Below are positions 20,201 through 44,725 of a stretch of 51,257 nucleotides of DNA, one piece after another. The notes beneath the pieces are model-generated. The model saw only the letters and a program-made list of their open reading frames with translations, did not search any database and had not been told where the DNA came from. The stretch is from Ectocarpus siliculosus. Taxonomy: Eukaryota; Sar; Phaeophyceae; Ectocarpales; Ectocarpaceae. Numbering within the stretch: the first letter of the stretch is position 1; each line of letters opens with the position of its first letter. Made by a program: the position numbers and the translations under genes. Where the stretch lies: contig FN647968.1 of NCBI GenBank assembly GCA_000310025.1, forward strand, positions 183,388-234,644, written 5' to 3'.

Positions 20201-21150
20201 AACCATCGTGAAACGGAATGAATCTCAGTATTTAGCGTCCGTTCATGCTACCGTGACAAAACCATGGGTCCAAACATCATCAAAATCCAAGCGTAGTCAA
20301 GCCGACGCAATCATGGAGAGGGGCTGGCGATGAGCCTACCGCAGTGGGGGCATCACCTTCTTCGCCACGTGCAACACCCGGTACACAATTGAAATTTGCC
20401 GTACGTTGTACTTTCATTCACTTCCGGAAGCTCCTTCCACGTCCCTCAACAAGACGAAACCGCCGCTTCTTGAAGCGCTTTCGCGATGAGCTCCTACGCC
20501 CTCCTTCCTCCTCCCCCCCCCCCCCCCTTCCCACGGAGACTGTGTTAATCGTGATCATTCTCTCCAAGCTTTCTCCCTCTTTCCTCTGCAATGGCACCGT
20601 CGGCTGCGGTACGCACATTCGCCCAAAGGTCCACTACGTGGATTGTACTTGCTGCCCACCGTGCGTAAAATGTGTCCCACTTATATACGATTCAGTATGG
20701 GATTTTTCATGTAGGGAATTAATTGGCGTTTATTGGGGGGGCGGGATGCCCCCCGGAGAGGTCCAAATTAACGTTTTTGGAGGTTAGGTGTCGGGAAGAG
20801 TTTTTTTCTTTGTGCACCTGCCCGTGTGTTTCGTTGAACTTCAACGAATCTCCGGCGGACGCCCATACCTTCCCCGCCTACCGGTTGAAATGTCCCTGCT
20901 AAGAACGTTATTCGATTTCGGACGCTGACAAGCTGTTCTTGTCTTGGTGATGGGAAGCTCGATTCAAGAGCGCTTTTTTATCGGTAGGTGAACGTGACTG
21001 GCATGCAATGCTTCTCCTGTGAAATGTCACCCCGCGGTAGTGTCACCCGTACCCCGCCGCCTTGCCTTTGGCCTGTAAATTTACTCCCTTTTTTCGTCGT
21101 ATTGTTTTCGATGGTCTACACAGGAAAGTTACAAAGACAGGTTCGTCAGG
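17221..21150. other. Region without a supportable gene, upstream of the LNR-WSC gene
   Basis: The part from about 18.2 to 19.5 kb is more AT-rich than the rest. Open frames have no motif, no cysteine pattern and no matching splice sites. The promoter and any 5' UTR exon of the LNR-WSC gene should lie in its last part, but I cannot place a transcription start. Confidence 0.45.
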
Positions 21151-24100
21151 ATGAAGGTGCTGTCCGCGTTCGTGCTGGTGCTGCCTCTGCTGCCGATCGT
21201 CAGCGCCACGGAAACAGGTAAGAGTACTGATGACAGCTTAGGTTAGATATATTGTCTATTGAAAACATATTGTGTGGAGATTGCGAAAGGCGAGTTGATG
21301 TATATTATTGGAGGAAGGATTTGGCGTGTATTGATGAGGAGGGCCTTGGAGATGATTTCCCCCTACCCCCCGGTACTTGATCCTACTTGGACAACAAGAT
21401 GCCTCCTTCGACAAGAAACCAGGCGGACCATGTCAGCTGTCGCCAAGCTTGGATACTAACAACCCGCCCCCCCCAACAATTCATATCCTATAATGTAACA
21501 GCCAGAAACATGCATACCGTGCATTTCGATGCCCTAAGCCTAGAACATGCTGATCTCGACCTGCCGGTCTTTCCATGTCTCGCCCTTGCGAGGAACATGA
21601 TTTCCTCGGCATAACGGTCATTCCATGCTCTGCTCGTAACCCAGAAAGCGCCAACCTTGACCTTCGTCAGACACGCCTGCCCAAGCCTATAACATGCTGA
21701 CCCTGTCCTGCTGGTTCTTTCCATGTCTCGCTCGTACCAGAGACAGGATATTCTCGACTGCCGTTCCAACTTGCCCTCTTAAAAACAAATAAAATGAATA
21801 TCTAAATTAATAAAATAATTTCACCCCGTAACTTCTTTGTCGTGTACCTTTCTATGCCCGCCTCAACAGGCCTTGTCCGCCCGAACCATACTTCCTTCCG
21901 ACCTCAGTTTACTACTCACGTAGTCCATTCAGTCCAAGTCACACTCCGTGCTTTTGGGTGGGAAGGGGGGGATAGAACCGACGATGCTTTTGCCCTCTCT
22001 CTGTCTGTCTCCTTCTCTTGCTACGCTCTCGCATCCTTGATATTCCTCCTCAAAAACTCCTCACTTCCCGGTTTGCTTGGCATGGTTCCCCTGCGTCCGG
22101 ATGGGTCTGTTGTGGGCAGGAGTCCAAATCCATCTGTTTTCTTGTTTTGAGTTTGGGTTCCCTTACCCGCCTACCCAATTCAGCTAATCACCAGGTTGTG
22201 CGACACAACCTTCCACTTTTTCCTGTGTTTCTCGAGGATACGTTTCTCAACGATGGCGCATGCACATGTATTCTGATCTTGCAGCTGTGAAAAGTTTGTC
22301 TTGTAGAATACACCATGCCCTCTTTCATTTCTTTCGGCGCTTGGACATATCCACCCTTGGGCTTAGAATGTTTTCCCCCGTCGTTGTCGCGATGTCTCGA
22401 CGACGAGGCTGTGATCGATCCATGAAGTTTTCGCATCACCAACGACAGTTTTCTCAGCCAATTCTGGAACGTTCCATCCATAATCGAGTGACTTCTTCGA
22501 CGAAGCGTGTGCCGGCGGTATGCTTTGTACACTGTTGCGAGAGAAAGTTTCGATGAATTTCATGAACATTTCTTCTTACGTTTTAGCATCGTCTATGCGC
22601 AAACAAGGGTGTATGCGCCGGCTAAATTAGCGCATATTAACTTTATTGTAGGTTAACCTGATCCGTTATTTACTCAAATTCCGATTACACGATTACAAAA
22701 GGTTCCTTTATGAGTATTTGACCCTACACAAGTAAGCTTAGCCTTTAGCCTCATTCTATTGCAGGTCCGCCGGGCTAAATTTTGGAGAAGCTTACAAGAA
22801 ACTTAGGAAAAAGCGCGCCCCCTACTGAAGAAAACGCACAAGCCTCCACATGTCTCTACAAGAATGACCCGGGCGCGCGCGCGGCAAAGAGGGAGGGCAG
22901 TACAGGAGGCGACGAGGCACAACAACCAACCCTATACCCTCGGTCTTTTCATAACAGCAGCAGTCCGTCATGTTATGACCACCTTGTCTTGTTATCTATA
23001 CCACAGCAAGCAAAGCAAATATTCCGAGCAGCCCGCTACAGCACAGCAGCACTGCACAGTCGTACATACCTCGAAATTTCAAACTGTAGCATCGTTATCA
23101 TCGTCAGCGAACAACCGCAGATCAATCAGCGGTTTGCCGTTCTCTTTCCTCGGCAAAAAGATATACCATCACTGTTTCGTTAAGTACTATAGTAACAAGG
23201 TTAGTCAGTCGTATCTTGATCATGTCTTGTAAATGTTGTCAGTTTGTGGTCGGTCGTCCTTGAAAACAGAGCGGAGGCGAGTCAAACTCGCCCGCCCCGC
23301 TTCTTTTACACACCCCACCCAGCGAACGTCGGATAGAGAGAAAAGTACAGGCCTTACGAAATAATACCAACGGAGGAGCTCTTTAACCGCTTTGTGATGA
23401 TAAGGAGGGGTTATTTCTTGACGTTCTGCAGCAATCGCTTTGCGCATCCACGCCTTTTTCAGGCTGAGTAAAAAATATTTTACTACGACGCCTCTTTCAA
23501 CAGATACAACTGATACTAAGACAGAACAACGCGCTCACTGGCAGCGCACACACGGTATGAACATGCTACAGCAGCTGAAGCCGTTCGAGTGAGATGGTTA
23601 CAATACCGAGCTGTGTGCGTGAAGAACTCTTCTAAGGTCTCCATGGTGCACTCCATCATTCGAGATTCGATGCGATTGAATGGTGGAGACAGTGAACGGC
23701 GCACCTTCCACGTCATACATATTACGGGGCCGGAGAGCCTGGCTGCTACTGGCAATAGGACGTTCGTGTCGCTCGTGTCACAACCCACCGATCGCAGGCG
23801 AACTTATCACCCACCTCATGATACCCGGTTTGCGCGTTATATCTTGCAGAATATCCTGAGTGCGAATCGAACGGTGGAGTCATCGAAAGGATTGGGGATG
23901 GCCGCTGTGACTACGAGGGTAAGCTCTGAGCCTGATTGTCGGTCAGATACTTGAGACTCATATGGACAAAAAGGGGATGATTCATTACCCATCCCGTTTA
24001 CGTTAAGACGGAGATCAACATACATGTATTATGTCTGCGGGAAGCCAGTTGACGCCCGCGGTGGGGTAGAGTTCAACGTAGCCTTCGAGCATGCATGAGC

Positions 24101-27100
24101 AACTGTGGTGTCGGCTGCGAAACCGCACTCGCCAACGGCGCGCTAAGGTCCGCAGTGGTCGTATAGTCTACATGTATGGGGACAGCAACATCCGGATTCT
24201 TCGTGATTCAACGCTTGGCACAGTCCATTGTATTTGAGTACACCATTTTCTTTGCGTAGGTTGTCCTGTGATCACGGAATCGACCGCGTCAAGTGTTGAA
24301 TCGGTGCGTACAGACGAAGGCACTGGGTAGAGAGTCAGGGGCAGTTTTGTTAATGTGAAGACGACGACAAAGCAACAACAACAACAACAACAACAACAAT
24401 AACAACAGTGTGAAGCCAGGCAACAAGAACCGAGAGCCCTACCCCATTGCTGTGTTGTCCCGTGCGTTTCAGGTGATCACATCAACAACATCGAAGAGTG
24501 CGGGTACGACGGTGGAGATGTGAGTCTACGGCCGGCCTTTCGACACCAACGATTGCTGGTCTTGACTTACTGGGTGGCGTTTGCATCAGAGTGCTACGTC
24601 CGATGCATCGCTATGAGTCGAATGTTGTTGCTACAGTTGTATGGCTGCGGTTAGCATGCGCCGATTCAGACATACATGCGAGCCCGATGAACAAAGCCGG
24701 TTCGATCAAAGGCCTCTGGCGCTACAATGCCTAGGCGTTCTCCTCACCTCAGGAGTGTGGCTGTCTCGATCGAGGCGCCACCTGAAACGGCCCCGGGAGT
24801 CTCCGATGCGACGCTACAACTAACCATAGTACCGCCGCCCTCCACTCTTCGATACTGCCGGTGCAGTGCTGTGTCTGCGATTGTGAAGATGGGGAGTACG
24901 CATGCGGCGCAGACCGATACAGTTGCCTGGACCCTGCCTCGACTTGCCACTACCCTGATTGCACCGCGAACGGGGGAGAGCTGTCGTGGCTTCCGGATGG
25001 CTGGTGTGACCTCGGTACGCTCTGAGTCTGATTGTCGGGGCCAGAGATGTGGCAACAAGGGAGGATGCAGACGTGTACCGGAACCGTTTTACGTGGAGAC
25101 GTGGATCAACATACTGTAGGCATATCTGCTGTGGGAAGCCAGTTGACGTCCGCGGCGGGGGTAGAGTATGAAGTGTCCGCTCGGAGTATGCATGCACCCT
25201 CGGCGCCGGTGACGAAGAGCCGCAGTGCCCCTGCTAGGGTCCGCAAGCCGTCGTGTGAATAGGAACAGGTGTTCCACATTTCTTGGTGATTCTACGCTAG
25301 GCACACAGTGTGAACCCACGCACAGAAGAACTGAGAACCCTGTCCCTCTCCTGTACTGTCACGTGCGTTTCAGAGAACAACATCGAAGAGTGCGGGTACG
25401 ACGGTGGAGATGTGAGTATGCAGCATCGCTGTTGTACATACGTTTGAAGACTTGTATTGTCGACTCGGGGTTGGTTGCGTATGCACCGAGTTGGACCCAT
25501 GCGTCGATTGAGTGATGATGGGTCTTCCGTCATTACTGCTCATAGTCAATGCCGAGTTGTATACGCGTGTCTGAATTGACGCAACCGCGTCGATCGGAGC
25601 GCCGTGTGAAATGTGCTCCGTGGGCTCTCAACCGCCTTGTTCCTACTCGGTCCTTTGCAAGATTCTCCGTGGGGCTGTGATACCATCAGGAGTGCGCTGG
25701 CCTCGACAGAGACGTGGTGCTCACTGTAGAACTCTCTCTGACCTAACCCCTCCCCCACCGTTTCGAACATCCTACCACGCAGTGCTGTGGGTGCGAATGT
25801 ATAAATGGGCTCTACCGTAAGTGCGGCATTGCCGGATACGACTGTGAGCACCCAACGTCGGCGTGCACAGGTGGGTCGTTGATGACGTTGGCTGGTCACG
25901 ATGCCTGTCTGGTGAACACACTGACGGGGGGCGCTCCACCACGTTAACTACGGAGTAGGCATGACGCCAGCGTTTCTGACTATATATATCAAGAGAAAGG
26001 CTTCATGGTATTGATTTTGTTGCTTTTCGCCTTGAATGTACTTTTCGGTGGCCTACGGAGGGAGACATGCCCGGTAGTACCACACGTTCTGCACGGCACA
26101 AAGCCCCCGCGGTATCCTAACGCGTATCTCTGGTGCTTTAAAACACGAGAGCTCCGCAGGAACACACCCCAGATGGGACGGAACTGTTGTACAGTATACC
26201 AGTCTCGGGCGACTGGGCCTCCCAATGGTACATACTATCATTCAAATAACAACCATTGCGACTTCTCTTGATAGCCGCTTCGGGAGACATGTGGAATAAA
26301 GTATACGGCAGTTTACAAGGTCGTACATGATTGGTTGTCGAGAAGTGTCGGTCCACATGATACGTATCGGAGAAGGAATGGGGCGTGACTTTGACGATGA
26401 GATATAGATGCCTCGTCCCGGTCAGTCCTGAATAATGAAGAGCTGGTGTGTCAGCCAACGGTCTTGCATCTTGACTGTCGGTAGTATATGCATGATGTCA
26501 AACGGCGATACGTGAAAGAGGGAAGTGAAAAATGATTACGATCCGAGTTAGCGTCGTTACCACAGTCATCTTACCGATGTGCCACCGCAGTCATCTCGCC
26601 GAGGAGTTTGACCAAAGCTTGCGCATTGTGCTGTACGGGTACCACAGTCATCTTACCGATGTGCCACCGCAGTCATCTCGCCGAGGAGGTTGACCAAAGC
26701 TTGCGCATTGTGCTGTACGGGTACTGCTCCCAGCATGTGTGACATTCCATCCTCCGAAAAGCAGTGTTGGATTAGGTAGAGCGGAAAAACGTGAAAATCG
26801 TATCAACAGGTGCGTGTCCGTTACCTCAGCAACCAGAGGTTACCGGCCCAAGAATTTCGACGGCAGAGTTCGGCACCCTCAGAACCGAGGGACCAATATC
26901 GGGGACACCAATAGTTGCGTTTCTCTGTTGGTACGTACAACCGTACAGCCTTCACCCGTATTACGCACGTAGACTATCCCTACAGTACCTCCTGCGACTG
27001 ACTTTGGTACTTTGGGCGCTTTCTAGTACCGATCTTGTCAGTTCGTAAGGCCCGCGTTGTCTGGCTGTTGCCGAAGCAGGTCAGTTCGTGTCTTACCTCG

Positions 27101-30100
27101 GGTGCTTCTCGGACCCTCAAGACAACCGCGTCTTCGAATTCAAGTCTTCCGACTCCGCCATGACCGCAGAGGTGAGTGACCAATCGATGGCTCGAAACGC
27201 ATGTGGATGCACGATGTGCGTGTGTATATTATTAGCATCGACCGCGCCAACTGGCTTACCAATGAAAAGGCGCCAGTCTCAAGTGCGGTTACAAACACAA
27301 AACACTTCAAAATGCCATCAACTGGGGCGGACCCCGTAAGGGGGCATCATGGGGGAGGCTAAGCTACTGTATGCATTCTCCGGCTTGAAGACAGAAACGG
27401 TAGCAACAGAAGAAATCTTCCCGTGTTTGTCAATCCTGCCACCTTGCACTCGAGTTCGTTTCGGAGTGGTTTCACCACCCTCCTTGCTTTCACCACCACC
27501 AGTCTCATCGCCATTGTTACACGTGCGTGTGTTTGGTTGCAACCGTTGTCCACGCGAGTTTGTGCGCGATGGAATGTACCCTTTGCGTTGCCTGATGCTT
27601 GTGGCAAGTGTTGCTTGCTGGCGGTGTATGGTAATGGCACAGACAGGAGTTTGTCCACGGTTGAAACTCACCACCACACCCAGCGTTTCCATTTGTTCAA
27701 CACATTGTCTGTGCACACGTCCATTACTGCTTGCTCCCCCCGTCGCCAAACGTGGATTGTCGACCGCTTTGGTTGTGCACACGGCCTTTCGACAACAGGT
27801 CTGTTCCGTGCTCTGCTCCGGCTCGCTCTTCTATGGCACCCAGTACTCGACAGAGGTATGCTACGAATTCTTAGATTTGGAAACAACGGGGTCATACGTC
27901 GATCAACGGTACTGTAGAGGTGTAGATCACGATAGTACATATTTGATGATGGACATATTGGGGACGGGGGCTGTGCGTTATCGCGAAAATGCTTGCACGT
28001 TGGTCGTCGTGCAATCTCCGTACCTGCGAGAACAATGGCAAGACGGTTCCAACGTGCCAACCGTTCTACGTTGCCTTCCTTGTAGACCATGCCATCGAAG
28101 ATCATTGGTATATGTTCGCCACACATTTCTCTTGTCTGACTGGTCGTTCGGTCCTTGACACGCTCACGCGCAGTCTGCGCTACACATCCATGGGGGTCAG
28201 TTTCTCTCTTTAGACTAACGATGACGGACTGCAACAACATGGACACAAACGATCGTTGGAATGGTTGCCTCAGGATCGGAGCGCGTCTTTCGTGCATTTT
28301 CAGATAAACTCATTCTTTCCTCGACGGTTGCTCGGCGGCACCCCAACACCTCCACCCGAACTATTCCCATGGTATTCTAGACAACGCCGCACGCCACTCT
28401 CGCAACCACAACACCTGAGCCCTTGGTCTCCACTCACGCCATCCTTTTGCCCCCGAAACGTTCGCCGATGGTTTGAAAACAGTGCTGGTGCGGTGACAAC
28501 GCCGACTACGACGCCAACGGCCCCGGCGTGTGCGACATGTCCTGCTCCGGCGACTCTGATGAGACATGTGGCGGACGGGACGCGCTCTCGGTTTACGTCA
28601 ACGGCGTGACCCCGAACGACCCGACGTTTCCTGAGTGCGAATCGAACGGTGGAGTCGTCGAACGGATTGGGGATGGCCGCTGTGACTACGAGGGTAAGCT
28701 CTGAGCCTGATTGTCGGTCACTAAGATAGACAAAAGAGAAGGACTCATTACCCATACCGCTTACGTGGAGACGGGGATCAACATAGGCATTATGTCTGTC
28801 TACGGGGAGTCAGTTGACCCCCGCGGTGGGGTAGAGTTCATCGTGTTCTCCGAGTATGCATGAGGAACCGCTGTGTCGGCTACGAAACCGCACCCGCCAA
28901 CGGCGTGCTAAGGTCCGCCAGTGGTCGTATAGTCTACATGCATGGGGACAGCAACATCACGATTCTTCGTGATTCAACGCTTGGCACAGTCCATTGTATT
29001 TGAGCACACCATTTTCTTTGGGTAGGTTGTCCTGTGACCACGGAATCGACCGCGTCAAGTGTTGAATCGGTGCGTACAGATGAAGGCACTGGGTAGAGAG
29101 TCAGGGGCAGTTTTGTTAATGTGAAGACGACGACGAAGCAACAACAACAACAACAATAACAACAGTGTGAAGCCAGGCAACAAGAACCGAGAGCCCTACC
29201 CCATTGCTGTGTTGTCCCGTGCGTTTCAGGTGACCACATCAACAACATCGAAGAGTGCGGGTACGACGGTGGAGATGTGAGTCTATGGCCGGCCTTTCGA
29301 CACCAACGATTGCTGGTCTTGACTTACTGGGTGGTGTTTGCATCAGAGTGCAACGAACGATGTATCGTATCATATACACTATTTGGAGAAACTACGAGAA
29401 CTCTCATGAGAATTATGAAAACCTCGAGAGGCCCTATGGGAACCCATGAGAGCCCATGAGGGTCCATGAAAACTCATGAAAACACAGGAGAACCCATGAG
29501 AATCCGTGAGTTCCCATCAGAAAACCCATGAGATCCTATAAGAAGCAGAAAAAAAACATGAGACCGATGCATCGCTATGAGTCGAATGTTGTTGCTAGAG
29601 TTGTATGGCTGCGGTTAGCATGCGAGGACTCAGACATACATGCGAGCCCGATGAACAAAGCCGGTTCGATCAAAGGCCTCTGGCGCTACAATGCCTAGGC
29701 GTTCTCCTCACCTCAGGAGTGTGGCTGTCTCGATCGAGGCGCCACCTGAAACGGCCCCGGGAGTCTCCGATGCGACGCTACAACTAACCATAGTACCGCC
29801 GCCCTCCACTCTTCGATACTGCCGGTGCAGTGCTGTGTCTGCGATTGTGAAGATGGGGAGTACGCATGCGGCGCAGACCGATACAGTTGCCTGGACCCTG
29901 CCTCGACTTGCCACTACCCTGATTGCACCGCGAACGGGGGAGAGCTGTCGTGGCTTCCGGATGGCTGGTGTGACCTCGGTACGCTCTGAGTCTGATTGTC
30001 GGGGCCAGAGATGTGGCAACAAGGGAGGATGCAGACGTGTACCGGAACCGTTTTACGTGGAGACGTGGATCAACATACTGTAGGCATATCTGCTGTGGGA

Positions 30101-33100
30101 AGCCAGTTGACGTCCGCGGCGGGGGTAGAGTATGAAGTGTCCGCTCGGAGTATGCATGCACCCTCGGCGCCGGTGACGAAGAGCCGCACTACGCGTGCTA
30201 GGGTCCGCAAGCCGTCGTGTGAATAGGAACAGGTGTTCCACATTTCTTGGTGATTCTACGCTAGGCACACAGTGTGAACCCACGCACAGAAGAACTGAGA
30301 ACCCTGTCCCTCTCCTGTACTGTCACGTGCGTTTCAGAGAACAACATCGAAGAGTGCGGGTACGACGGTGGAGATGTGAGTATGCAGTATCACTGTTGTA
30401 CGTACGTTTGAAGACTTGTAGTGTCGACTCGGGGTCGGTTGCGTATGCGCCGAGTTGGACCCATGCGTCGATTGAACGATGATGGGTCTTCCGTCATTAC
30501 TGCTCATAGTCAATGCCGAGTTGTATACGCGTGTCTGAATCGACGCAACCGCGTCCATCGGAGCGCCGTGTGAAATGTGCTCCGTGGGCTCTCAACCGCC
30601 TTGTTCCTACTCGGTCCTTTGCAAGATTCTCCGTGGGGCTGTGATACATCAGGAGTGCGCTGGCCTCGACAGAGACGTGGTGCTCACCGTAGAACTCTCT
30701 CTGACCTAACCCCTCCCCCACCGTTTCGAACATCCTACCACGCAGTGCTGTGGGTGCGAATGTATAAATGGGCTCTACCGTAAGTGCGGCATTGCCGGAT
30801 ACGACTGTGAGCACCCAACGTCGGCGTGCACAGGTGGGTCGTTGATGACGTTGGCTGGTCACGATGCCTGTCTGGTGAACACACTGACGGGGGGCGCTCC
30901 ACCTCGTTAACTACGGAGTAGGCATGACGCCAGCGTTTCTGACTATATATATCAAGAGAAAGGCTTCATGGTATTGATTTTGTTGCTTTTCGCCTTGAAT
31001 GTACTTTTCGGTGGCCTACGGAGGGAGACATGCCCGGTAGTACCACACGTTCTGCACGGCACAAAGCCCCTGCGGTATCCCAACGCGTATCTTTGGTGCT
31101 TTAAAACACGAGAGCTCCGCCGGAACACACCCAGATGGGACGGAACTGTTGTACAGTATACCAGTCTCGTGCGACTGGGCCTCCCAATGGTACATACTGT
31201 CATTCAAATAACAACCATTGCGACTTCTCTTGATAGCCGCTTCGGGAGACATGTGGAATAAAGTATACGGCAGTTCACAAGGTCGTACATGATTGGTTGT
31301 CGAGAAGTGTCGGTCCACATGATACGTATCGGAGAAGGAATGGGGCGTGACTTTGACGATGAGATATAGATGCCTCGTCCCGGTCAGTACTGAATAATGA
31401 AGAGCTGGTGGTGTGTCAGCCAACGGTCTTGCATCTTGACTGTCGGTAGTGTATGCATGATGTCAAACGGCGATACGTGAAACAGGGAAGTGGAAAATGA
31501 TTACGATCCGAGTTAGCGTCGTTATCACAGTCATCTTACCGATGTGCCACCGCAGTCATCTCGCCGAGGAGGTTGACCAAAGCTTGCGCATTGTGCTGTA
31601 CGGGTACTGCTCCCGGCATGTGTGAAATTCCATCCTCCGAAAAGCAGTGTTGGATTAGGTAGAGCGGAAAAACGTGAAAATCGTATCAACAGGTGCGTGT
31701 CCGTTACCTCAGCAACCAGAGGTTACCGGCCCAAGAATTTCGACGGCAGAGTTCGGCACCCTCAGAACCGAGGGACCAATATCGGGGACACCAATAGTTG
31801 CGTATCTCTGTTGATACGTCCAACCGTACAGGCTCCACCCATATTACGCACGTAGACTATCCCTACAGTACCTCCTGCGACTGACTTTGGTACTTTGGGC
31901 GCCTTCTAGTACCGATCTTGTCAGTTCGTAAGGCCCGCGTCGTCTGGCTGTTGCCGACGCAGGTCAGTTCGTGTCTTACCTCGGGTGCTTCTCGGACCCT
32001 CAAGACAACCGCGTCTTCGAATTCAAGTCTTCCGACTCCGCCATGACCGCAGAGGTGAGTGACCAATCGATGGCTCGAAACGCATGTGGATGCACGATGT
32101 GCGTGTGTATATTATCAGCATCGACCGCGCCAACTGGCTTACCAATGAAAAGGCGCCAGTCTTAAGTGCGGTTACAAACACAAAACACTTCAAAATGCCA
32201 TCAACTGGGGCGGACCCCGTAAGGGGGCATCATGGGGGAGGCCAAGCTGCTGTATGCATTCTCCGGCTTGAAGACAGAAACGGTAGCAACAGAAGAAATC
32301 TTCCCGTGTTTGTCAATCCTGCCACCTTGCACTCGAGTTCGTTTCGGAGTGGTTTCACCACCCTCCTTGCTTTCACCACCACCAGTCTCATCGCCATTGC
32401 TACACGTGCGTGTGTTTGGTTGCAACCGTTGTCCACGCGAGTTTGTGCGCGATGGAATGTACCCTTTGCGTTGCCTGATGCTTGTGGCAAGTGTTGCTTG
32501 CTGGCGGTGTATGGTAATGGCACAGACAGGAACTTGTCCACGGTTGAAACTCACCACCACACCCAGTGTTTCCATTTGTTCCACATATTGTCTGTGCACA
32601 CGTCCATTACTGCTTGCTCCCCCCGTCGCCAAACGTGGATTGTCGACCGCTTTGGTTGTGCACACGGCCTTTCGACAACAGGTCTGTTCCGTGCTCTGCT
32701 CCGGCTCGCTCTTCTATGGCACCCAGTACTCGACAGAGGTATGCTAGGAATTCTTAGATTTGGAAACAACGGGGTCATACGCCGATCAACGGTACTGTAG
32801 AGGTGTAGATCGCGATAGTACATATTTGATGATGGACATATTGGGGACGGGGGCTGTGCGGTATCGCGAAAATGCCTGCACGTTGGTCGTCGTGCAATCT
32901 CCGTACCTGCGAGAACAATGGCAAGACGGTTTCAACGTGCCAACCGTTCTACGTTGCCTTCCTTGTAGACCATGCCATCGAAGATCATTGGTATATGTTC
33001 GCCACACATTTCTCTTGTCTGACTGGTCGTTCGGTCCTTGACACGCTCACGCTCAGTCTGCGCTACACATCCATGGGGGTCAGTTTCTCTCTTTAGACTA

Positions 33101-35385
33101 ACGATGACGGACTGCAACAAGATGGACACAAACGATCAGTTGGAATGGTTGCCTCAGGATCGGAGCGCGTCTTTCGTGTATTTTCAGATGAACTCATTCT
33201 TTCCTCGACGGTTGCTCGGCGGCACCCCAACACCTCCACCCGAACTATTCCCATGGTATTCTAGACAACGCCGCACGCCACTCTCGCAACCACAACACCT
33301 GAGCCCTTGGTCTCCACTCACGCCATCCTTTTGCCCCCGAAACGTTCGCCGATGGTTTGAAAACAGTGCTGGTGCGGTGACAACGCCGACTACGACGCCA
33401 ACGGCCCCGGCGTGTGCGACATGTCCTGCTCCGGCGACTCTGATGAGACATGTGGCGGACGGGACGCACTCTCGGTTTACGTCAACGGCGTGACCCCGAA
33501 CGACCCGATTTTCCGTGGATGCTACTCCGACCCGGCCGACAACCGTATTTTCGAGCTTGTGGTTTCCTCTCAAGACATGACTTCCGAGGTGAGTGAGCAA
33601 GCAAGCTAGATTTGAACATCTCGGGTCATGTATTGAGCTGTTGGTGATGTGATCTTGTCTCAATGTCACGTGGGTTTTGCTCTGAGTGGTACTTCTGTGT
33701 TGATATTCGAGGTTTGTCGTTGCACGGCATTTTTCACCAGCGTTCGAAATCATCGTTGGACCAGCACGCCAAACACACCCAACAAACTTGCATGTTATTC
33801 CCATTTCACTTGTCTCGCGCTTCTTTTGACCGATCATTGGCTTCCCTCCAATGTGAACAATCGGCCACAGACCTGCATGGGGCACTGCAGTGCTTACCAA
33901 TACTACGGAACTCAGTATTCGACAGAGGTGAGAGTTCTAGTTCTGCCGCACATAACCCGTGGTATGGATCGCGGCGTGTCCATGTTGCGCTAACGTGTGT
34001 CGGAACTGCATGACGGCCGTTGAAATCAACAATCACGCCCACGGTCATGGTCTTGGTGGATTTTTCAAGTCACCGACGTGCCTCGGATCATATCTGTGTC
34101 GTACGATTGCCTTCGCTGCTCTGTGCACCCGCTCGAAATCTATGGATCACTCATCATGGGAGTCGTGGCTTGTGCACAAGCGGCCCGCCAAGTACATCGT
34201 ACAAGGTAGTTGGTGTTACGATGTTCCGTATAGTATGGTCGTCGCGCGGTTCGGAGAAGACCGGCCTCCGTCGACCACACTTGTGAAGTGGACAACGTGT
34301 GTATGCTGTTCTCATCCACCAGCGACTGAAATGCCGAGTTGTTTGGTCCCCGTCATCTTCTCTCACTAGCTTTATGCTCTACTGTAGTGAGGAGCCTCGT
34401 GCTTACAAGCTAGTACGCACCACCCGTCCCAGACACCATCACAGAACGCTTGTCATTACGTTAACCCTCTTACAGTATTCTAGTACTGGAAGCCCTTTGG
34501 GGACGACTTGGGGACACATATGCCTATCTCAACTGTCTGTTTACGACACCACAATCGCCCTAGGCTCCGCTGTGTGAAATAAACGCACGTGAGAACCCTT
34601 GGTCTATCATGCTTGGGTGAGGTGGCACGCTGTGCGATATTCTGTGTGATGCCTATTCTCGGCCTCTAACTTGAACACCTAGGTTGTACAACTGTACATA
34701 GCCTGGTACTGGAAAAAAATGCTGACTTGGCTTCAGTATGAAAAGGGTCCCCACCTGGGGATTGGGATGGTATGGTCCAATGCCTTTCGTTCCGACGCGA
34801 GAGGTCCACGGCGAAGTGCTTGCTTGCGACGGGGGGTGCCCCGGCCAGTCGAACCGAAGCAACACCGTTGGGGCACGTTCTGCCCTCGGGTTCCGTTGGT
34901 TTTTGTACAGGCATGGCCTCCTCAAATCCTTCTGATAACACGCCTAGGCACTCGTCAGCACAACGAGGTTGTACACATCCCCAACCGTGCCCTCTTAGCG
35001 CGATGGCTGTGCTTGGATCGGAGTATGCTTCTTCTCGAACCGATTGCCGTAAGTCATCAGCGACGTTTCTCGTGCTGCGTGATACGTGCTGACACCATCT
35101 ATACATCTCCCTCATTTCACCACGAACTACTCCACGTTATTCGAGTCATCTTTTGCTTAATATTGGATCTTTTCACACAACAACGCTCCCTGTCCTCTGA
35201 TTCCACGACACCCTGAACGAACGCCTCACTGCATTTTCCATCCCTACCGAAAACAGTGCTGGTGCGGTGACGTCAACGCCCAATACTCCGTCAACGGCGA
35301 AGGAGTCTGTGACATGCGCTGCTCGGGCAACTCCGAAGAAACCTGCGGGGGGTACTTCAGCATGTCGGTGTACGAAGCCATTTAA
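21151..35385 (+). CDS. Secreted LNR/WSC multidomain protein, 18 exons
   Basis: Exons: 21151-21217, 23850-23918, 24473-24519, 24867-25014, 25374-25411, 25783-25870, 27080-27171, 27799-27855, 28483-28693, 29230-29276, 29831-29978, 30338-30375, 30746-30833, 31963-32054, 32682-32738, 33367-33588, 33871-33927, 35257-35385. All are GT-AG with consistent phases, giving 564 residues. Signal peptide MKVLSAFVLVLPLLPIVSA; then Notch-type LNR repeats at about 26-62, 93-124, 254-289 and 320-351, each with GDGRCD or DGWCD and NNIEECGYDGGD, the Ca-binding LNR signature with fewer Cys than animal LNRs. Cys-rich linkers (CCVCDC, CCGCEC) follow. WSC domains lie at about 157-241, 384-468 and 477-564 (YLGCFSDPQDNRVFE, SLFYGTQYSTE, CWCGDNADYDANGPGVCDM, TCGGRDALSVY). 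No membrane anchor is seen. WSC domains bind carbohydrate in other families, so a wall or matrix role is inferred. Residues ~25-249 recur at ~252-476. Confidence 0.9.
21218..23849 (+). other. Intron 1 of the LNR-WSC gene (2.6 kb)
   Basis: Bounded by ACAG|gtaaga and ttgcag|AATATCC, phase 1. Two diverged copies of a ~60 bp unit (AGCCTAGAACATGCTGA ... CTTTCCATGTCTCGC) lie at about 21535-21600 and 21685-21745. No other exon with signal was found in it. Confidence 0.7.
24375..24408. repeat. (CAA)n microsatellite in the LNR intron
   Basis: About ten CAA/AAC triplets; the matching place in copy B (29139-29163) has a shorter tract, as expected for slippage after duplication. Confidence 0.9.
26558..26722 (+). 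repeat. ~82 bp tandem duplication private to copy A
   Basis: Two near-identical units starting ACCACAGTCATCTTACCGAT and ending at GTGCTGTACGGGT. Copy B (about 31525-31607) has one unit. This accounts for one of the length offsets between the two 4.8 kb copies. Confidence 0.92.
28623..33505 (+). repeat. Tandem duplication, copy B
   Basis: Contains the 3' part of exon 9 and exons 10-15 plus most of exon 16. It begins inside exon 9, where the end of a WSC domain (VNGVTPNDP) runs without intron into the start of an LNR (PECESNGG). In the original arrangement (23850) that LNR starts after an intron acceptor. After 33505 the sequence continues into the third WSC domain (FRGCYSDPADNR) instead. Confidence 0.95.
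29355..29565. repeat. ~207 bp CATGAG-repeat insertion in copy B
   Basis: Present only in copy B, between the shared GCATCAGAGTGC and CCGATGCATCGCTATGAG sequences. It carries roughly a dozen degenerate 12-16 bp units built on ACCCATGAGA / CTCATGA. It lies in the intron between exons 10 and 11 and so does not touch coding sequence. Confidence 0.85.
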
Positions 35386-44177: not shown

Positions 44178-44262
44178 CGGCAACACAGGTCGTGCTTCCA
44201 GCGCCGCCGCCGTCCACGGCTCCGGCGAACCGCAGGGGCTGGTGGAGCACCAGCTTGCCTCC
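44178..44262 (-). CDS. Possible minus-strand exon (GGKLVLHQPLRFAG)
   Basis: Bounded on the minus strand by ctcaccag|GGAGGC and GCCG|gtgagg. The 85-base open stretch reads GGKLVLHQPLRFAGAVDGGG and on to TTCVAG. The strand-turn style is that of beta-helix surface proteins, but this is weak. A second, broken copy of the exon lies about 316 bp away at about 44500-44578. Function unknown. Confidence 0.35.
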
Positions 44263-44725
44263 CTGGTGAGATGGAGTCGAGCAACGCCGCGACGGTCGTG
44301 AACCGAAGGTTTGCGAGATACGGACAGGTCGTTGGTTCTCGAGACACGGAGTTGCTGGAAACTATTCACGCTCTTCCACGCCGAAAAGGCTCCCTTCCAC
44401 CTCTATTTGGCATGTGTCCCCAACATCATGGACAAACCAAATCCTCAATCACAGCGTACCCGAGGTGCCTCCCCCTGTTCGCCTATGGCGCTTCCGGCGC
44501 CCTCGCCGCCGTCCACGGCTCCGGCGAACCGCAGGGGCTGGCGAACCGCAGGGGCTGGTGGAGCACCAGCTTGCTTCCCTGGTGAGATGGAGTCGAGCAA
44601 CGCCGCGACGGTCGTGAACCGAAGGTTTGCGAGATACGGACAGGTCGTTGGTTCTCGAGACACGGGGTTGCTGGAAACTATTCACGCTCTTACACGCCAA
44701 AAAGGCTCCCTTCCATCTCTTTCCA
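44200..44725. repeat. ~200 bp segment duplicated ~316 bp apart
   Basis: 44208-44402 and about 44507-44722 are nearly identical. The second copy contains an extra internal 17 bp repeat (GCGAACCGCAGGGGCTG twice), which breaks the minus-strand frame that the first copy keeps open. Confidence 0.92.

Follow-up and report, generated by a model that had tools for sequence, protein, structure and literature searches.

According to the parts of the published accounts drawn on here, repeated domains in proteins are mostly gained when several domains are duplicated together, and not every case can be put down to exon shuffling (Bjorklund et al. 2006, PMC1553488). In the ROCO genes of brown algae, LRR exons have been duplicated and shuffled (Teng et al. 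2024, PMC11378527, citing Zambounis et al. 2012), and in brown algal PR-1 genes of two species, the CAP domain has been tandemly duplicated within the gene, CAP being also found joined to WSC (PMC12879055). Homogenised iterated introns and repeats have been described in the MaSp2 silk genes of spiders (Baker et al. 2022, PMC9779670). WSC-domain proteins, for their part, are counted among the cell-wall proteins of brown algae (PMC8307928). For the locus analysed here, a non-exhaustive search of the literature found no title or abstract opening on the subject.

Here, we report the analysis of a window of 51,257 nucleotides from Ectocarpus siliculosus, by which we mean the whole stretch of DNA that was examined (C41:183,388-234,644 of a 189.5-Mb assembly consisting of 492 contigs). 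Our main reading, to which we assign a probability of roughly 0.78, is that one gene in the window underwent an in-frame intragenic duplication of about 4.8 kb, after which the two copies diverged and were later homogenised.

The gene was modelled by splicing in a script, with the exons picked by hand and the domains as a guide. All 17 of the 17 predicted introns are GT-AG with phases in agreement, and the preliminary description was right that the spliced frame stays open across both copies, as one frame of 18 exons in the predicted splicing. The main parts of the model are as follows.

21,151-35,385, + strand: whole predicted gene, 18 exons, 564 amino acids, consisting of a signal peptide, two successive blocks of LNR-like, LNR-like, WSC, and a further WSC (in-script splicing; Pfam WSC)
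21,151-21,217, + strand: exon 1, signal-peptide-like, MKVLSAFVLVLPLLPIVSA, with phase-1 donor GTAAGA (gene model)
23,850-23,918, + strand: exon 2, start of the first LNR-like repeat in its original 5' context, with acceptor TTGCAG (gene model, junction comparison)
25,783-25,870, + strand: exon 6, end of the second LNR-like repeat, with phase-1 donor GTGGGT (gene model, comparison with C23 and C21)
27,080-28,628, + strand: WSC 1, exons 7 and 8 and the WSC part of exon 9 (gene model, Pfam)
31,963-33,510, + strand: WSC 2, the copy B counterpart of WSC 1, exons 14 and 15 and the first part of exon 16 (gene model, Pfam)
33,511-35,385, + strand: WSC 3, outside the duplication, remainder of exon 16, exons 17 and 18 and the stop codon (gene model, Pfam)

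Among the four starts listed in 20,900-23,860 at a hydrophobicity of at least 1.6, the ATG of exon 1 is the only one followed by a consensus phase-1 donor. The repeat period of the predicted protein is exactly 227 residues; each LNR-like repeat is trailed by a short Cys-rich segment, and the stop codon follows the third WSC. Both copies preserve the frame and every splice site. We consider it probable that the predicted splice model is the one used in the cell.

The WSC assignment is clear: the Pfam model (PF01822) scores 141.7 bits in the predicted protein against a cut-off of 27.8, over three stretches, and the solved chain 7pz2, which we take to be a WSC domain, matches the same region with an E value of 6.8e-6. 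Canonical LNR repeats have six cysteines along with calcium-binding acidic residues. The repeats in this protein have four cysteines each and retain the motifs DGxCD and ECGYDGGDC, and the LNR/Notch model (PF00066) stays below its Pfam cut-off of 21.2 bits both for the whole protein (17.8 bits) and for the LNR pair alone (20.1 bits). Because four of the usual six cysteines are present and the score is below the cut-off, we label these repeats LNR-like; the preliminary description had called them LNR. The phosphotransferase 7s05 matches the LNR-like region with an E value of 2.4e-4, presumably through its own LNR. A designed protein, 6z2i, also matched this region (5e-5) and was taken as a chance hit, none of its stretches passing alone.

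No membrane or GPI anchor was seen when the predicted protein was read by eye. The signal peptide and domain content suggest a surface location, and the protein may act by multivalent WSC binding of wall or matrix carbohydrate, with the LNR-like modules in between.

Comparison of the window with itself (self-BLAST) revealed tandem copies at 23,854-28,631 and 28,629-33,514, matched in three blocks with identities of 90.6% over 765 columns, 98.1% over 2,046 and 98.2% over 1,993. Together with the alignment of the two copies, it delimits the following features.

23,854-28,628, + strand: copy A of the duplicated block (self-comparison and alignment)
28,629-33,513, + strand: copy B of the duplicated block (self-comparison and alignment)
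29,355-29,561, + strand: insert of 207 bp present in copy B only, carrying a minisatellite with a 10-bp period at 29,436-29,544 (A/B alignment)
26,558-26,724, + strand: tandem duplication of 82 bp in intron 6, present in copy A only (A/B alignment)

The insert in copy B and the 82-bp duplication in copy A account for most of the change in offset along the two copies. Sequence similar to the insert was also found by assembly search on at least four other contigs (C4, C16, C18 and C33). Searches of the 189-Mb assembly, one of which scored the best 40 of 2,181 first candidates, listed no third copy of the 4.8-kb unit among their matches. The window holds two adjacent direct copies with their introns, which in the gene model would belong to a single transcription unit. 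Two further repeats were encountered in the window: a second small direct repeat of 181 bp with 97% identity (44,224-44,404 and 44,540-44,720), and a roughly 300-bp repeat in the intron that separates exon 7 from exon 8 (about 27,214-27,521, and by offset also 32,097-32,404), which has at least 34 relatives of similar length across the genome at 76-81% identity.

The two copies meet inside an exon.

28,483-28,693, + strand: exon 9, a fusion of a WSC tail and an LNR head, with the junction at about 28,622-28,631 (junction comparison, gene model)

The parental sequences are GCAGAATATCCTGAG on the 5' side and GACCCGATTTTCCGTGG on the 3' side, and the join reads GACCCGACGTTTCCTGAG. The parents have about 3 bp (TCC) in common at this point, and the join contains one net extra base, owing to which the LNR frame is kept; a plain TCC join would be out of frame. 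In the gene model, the reading frame runs on across the junction, as expected of an intragenic tandem duplication. Strict exon shuffling, with breakpoints in introns of matching phase, is not what is found here: both breakpoints lie in exons, so that intron-intron shuffling does not apply. The preliminary description had proposed that the end of a WSC domain is fused to the start of an LNR within an exon, which is borne out, and that the frame was maintained without a new intron, which is also correct except that the extra base was needed.

How unusual such a join would be by chance was estimated from 100,000 random tandem duplications simulated in the gene with one unit taken out. Exon-exon duplications made up 1,188 of the 100,000, with 393 in frame, and intron-intron duplications 79,419, with 40,583 in compatible phase. 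Hence, the exon-exon kind represents about one in a hundred of the frame-keeping outcomes expected by chance.

Divergence between the two copies is distributed very unevenly. In the MAFFT alignment, substitutions affect 38 of the 276 aligned sites (13.8%) in the first 290 bp or so, as against 79 of 4,394 (1.8%) in the remainder, and the break near 24,141, a 7.7-fold change, is sharp, with none of 2,000 permutations as extreme.

23,919-24,141, + strand: strongly divergent part of intron 2 in copy A, with 36 of 211 intron sites differing; position 24,141 pairs with 28,906 in copy B (A/B alignment)
24,142-28,628, + strand: tract in which the copies are alike, read as homogenised, with 79 of 4,394 sites differing, including 75 of 3,778 in introns (A/B alignment)

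The break persists in introns alone (36/211 on the left vs 75/3,778 on the right), so that coding constraint does not explain the change in divergence, as gene conversion predicts. By blastn, the 290 columns of the left part contain 29 mismatches and 10 gap openings, and the disagreement with MAFFT indicates that the size of the break, not its presence, depends on the aligner. The longest run free of substitutions between the copies spans 560 bp, longer than expected (P about 0.002).

Exons differ less than introns (6 of 681 aligned sites, a count to which the junction codon contributes two, vs 111 of 3,989; P = 0.002), and the A/B alignment contains no indels inside exons, the single exonic gap column being the end of the aligned block. 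At the codon level, there are 3 synonymous differences in 144.7 sites vs 3 non-synonymous differences in 530.3 (the junction codon accounting for 2 of the latter); with P = 0.12, selection on both copies is suggested but not proved.

We infer that conversion between the copies produced this mosaic, from which it follows that what the 98% identity dates is more likely a later homogenisation than the duplication itself. Under the main reading, the ancestor would have been one gene encoding a secreted protein with a signal peptide, two LNR-like repeats and two WSC domains in that order. In a tandem duplication some 4.8 kb long, one breakpoint would have fallen a little way into the first LNR exon and the other within an exon, where the two WSC domains meet, and the ends would have been joined through about 3 bp of common sequence plus one net extra base, the frame happening to survive. 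The protein would thereby have been lengthened by a 227-residue LNR-LNR-WSC block. Copies A and B would then have diverged, and gene conversion (or unequal exchange to the same effect) would later have evened out everything downstream of about 24,141, with the 5' edge of the unit left unconverted.

Such a history modifies several earlier statements. The preliminary description had spoken of two almost identical adjoining copies of about 4.8 kb, introns included, of a gain of 227 residues in one step, and of a duplication seen in recent form. The adjoining copies with their introns hold, as does the addition of 227 residues (LNR-like, LNR-like, WSC). Near identity needs qualifying, given the 207-bp insert in copy B, the 82-bp duplication in copy A and the substitution level of the 5' edge; the recent form and the single step find no support in the mosaic divergence, which better fits an older, later homogenised duplication than a single recent one.

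One alternative to duplication followed by homogenisation is a single duplication without conversion along the unit, recent enough for a divergence of about 1.8%, the 5' edge having either evolved fast or been replaced by a foreign LNR intron. In its favour, only about 290 bp are strongly divergent, most of them in an intron; LNR introns are alike across the genome, making an ectopic donor conceivable; and a second change point in the right-hand part is not significant (365 of 2,000 permutations). This reading is, however, hard to reconcile with so abrupt a substitution change at one point, and the 560-bp substitution-free run indicates conversion elsewhere in the unit. As for a donor, when the genome was searched with 28,600-28,800, a query that includes the first 172 bases of copy B, the matches listed were the sequence itself and copy A, and thus none nearer than copy A. 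Comparison of 41 left-edge sites (3 of them just before the unit) with five LNR introns, namely that of the second LNR of this gene and both of C23 and of C21, shows differences falling on both sides, with 19 sites A-like, 17 B-like and 5 ties, a distribution that fits an ectopic donor and old divergence alike. To the left of the break, polarisation with C23 and C21 assigned 4 of 38 differing sites to B and 3 to A, with 31 not clearly assigned; of 33 differing sites in 24,142-25,960, 10 were assigned to A, 10 to B and 13 to neither. On this evidence, we regard a single recent duplication as unlikely.

LNR pairs and WSC genes occur apart in this genome, which raises another alternative, namely, that the locus holds two neighbouring genes rather than one, a secreted LNR-LNR gene product ending at 25,947 and a WSC-WSC product starting near 26,005, and that the duplication made a chimeric WSC-LNR-LNR third gene between intact parents. 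Genes with LNR-LNR and no WSC in the stretches read were found on C23, C30, C21 and C389, and C25 carries a WSC gene that has a signal-peptide exon of its own and, in the 3.9 kb read upstream of the first WSC, no LNR. If unspliced, exon 6 is open to the stop at 25,947, and in the C23 and C21 genes, too, the frame past exon 6 runs on until a stop at a comparable position, in C21 with a 6-base difference that is in frame. Exon 6 of both nevertheless retains a GT donor, and downstream of it, each has a Cys-rich probable exon with a phase-compatible acceptor; the donor and the joinable downstream frame suggest that exon 6 is, in this family, probably an internal exon. Being near-identical to C21, C30 and C389 do not count as independent cases. 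A Pfam search of three further C23 frames and one C21 frame yielded nothing beyond a sub-threshold WAP match. The tail past exon 6, judged by eye, varies equally at all three codon positions, which speaks against the two-gene arrangement, and the gap between the two genes would be just 57 bp.

A further point in favour of two genes is the putative start itself. The sequence MVLILLLFALNVLFG at 26,005 in intron 6, retained in copy B at 30,968, is signal-peptide-like and very hydrophobic, and the 390,366 bases scanned contain 6 starts of such hydrophobicity that have any phase-1 GT, those at 26,005 and 30,968 included. The start is thus unusual and leaves some room for a second gene, but it lacks the consensus phase-1 donor that both exon 1 and the C25 signal exon have. 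A different stretch of the same intron resembles the C25 signal exon but has neither ATG nor donor.

26,252-26,318, + strand: possible decayed trace of a WSC-gene signal-peptide exon (C25-like) in intron 6 (alignment with C25; moderate)

With a lenient gap cost, intron 6 and the C25 upstream region gave no signal (p 0.54). Under stricter costs, the signal-exon stretch was matched or exceeded in 0, 0 and 1 of 400 shuffles (three scorings), and the whole C25 upstream region against intron 6 gave p values of 0.005, 0.045 and 0.415; given these mixed whole-region values, we grade the trace as moderate. It may be the remnant of a WSC gene start left after LNR and WSC genes were joined. Taken together, these observations make two neighbouring genes at this locus quite improbable, and we retain the origin of the duplicated block within one gene.

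That two haplotypes or a misjoin were set in tandem by the assembly is very unlikely: near-identical sequences do occur on separate contigs here (C30, C21 and C389; 99.93-99.98%), but the mosaic divergence (13.8% and 1.8%) is unlike an erroneously copied block, the copies differ in length by the 207-bp and 82-bp segments, an in-frame exon-exon join arose in only about 0.4% of simulated draws, and the copies lie inside a 443-kb contig rather than at its end.

WSC exons are abundant in this genome, with at least 102 matches. The Pfam LNR model found only 2 matches genome-wide, neither at this locus, and the LNR pair of this gene used as a query found 61, its own locus counted; the same query had no match on the viral contigs searched. 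Within the unit, LNR 1 and LNR 2, inner introns included, are older copies of each other. Among 13 locus pairs compared, LNR gene pairs lying 19-35 kb apart on C11 (two), C17 and C27 are about 81-97% identical over long stretches; four of the 13 comparisons were uninformative because the loci overlapped, and the remainder gave short or weaker stretches except for a WSC pair on C456 (96%). The paired loci (L047/L051, L054/L056, L058/L061 and L052/L055 on C11, C17 and C27) represent tandem gene duplication in the same family. The kinship of LNR 1 and LNR 2, along with these paired loci, indicates that growth by duplication at several scales is common around this family.

Two observations on other members of the family were made in passing. 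The LNR-LNR gene copies at C30:1,610,741-1,614,839 (L070), C21:1,407,734-1,411,832 (L071) and C389:12,699-16,729 (L072) are 99.93-99.98% identical over 4 kb and are either a recent dispersed duplication or leftover haplotype contigs. The LNR gene on C23 (L069 with L086, C23:1,888,121-1,895,000) seems to extend into two more exons, one Cys-rich and WAP-like and the other reading GDPHMTGFRGQKFDFTG; the latter had no Pfam match and strikes us as reminiscent of von Willebrand D-type sequence.

Around this gene, LNR pairs and WSC arrays are found separately as well as joined, with a phase-1 intron at the boundary in each of the four modelled loci (this gene, C23, C21 and C25), and so offer a small system for the study of protein assembly. 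The locus itself is a legible example of block gain in a multi-domain secreted protein, with breakpoint, parents and aftermath all preserved, and a caution that the percent identity of tandem copies can date the last conversion instead of the duplication. One might speculate further that the two copies form a live cassette of variable length, in which ongoing conversion and unequal exchange yield alleles with one, two or three blocks in natural populations. We consider this improbable; if true, such a cassette would let a wall-type protein family tune its binding valency by recombination.

Both intragenic tandem duplication and repeat homogenisation are already known; what the locus adds is a new and well-preserved instance rather than a new mechanism. 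As in the cases surveyed by Bjorklund et al. (2006, PMC1553488), a multi-domain block has been doubled beside itself within a gene; unlike those, as far as the part of the survey drawn on here describes them, the block mixes LNR-like repeats with WSC, and the breakpoint, introns and mosaic are legible at the level of single bases. With the brown algal PR-1 genes (PMC12879055), this gene has in common intragenic duplication and the combination of WSC with other domains in brown-algal proteins, although a different domain family was duplicated there, and detail on junction and introns is given, relative to the portion of that account used here, for the present gene only. The resemblance to the ROCO genes, in the excerpted account (PMC11378527), lies in the duplication of repeat exons within genes for recognition-type proteins of brown algae; there, however, single LRR motifs are separate exons bounded by phase-2 introns, whereas here the join falls inside an exon and the unit contains seven introns. 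The MaSp2 genes, as partially described (PMC9779670), similarly carry near-identical intron-bearing units within one gene, read as homogenisation, but in those genes the units are many, whereas in the gene described here there are two, with the unconverted 5' edge still visible.
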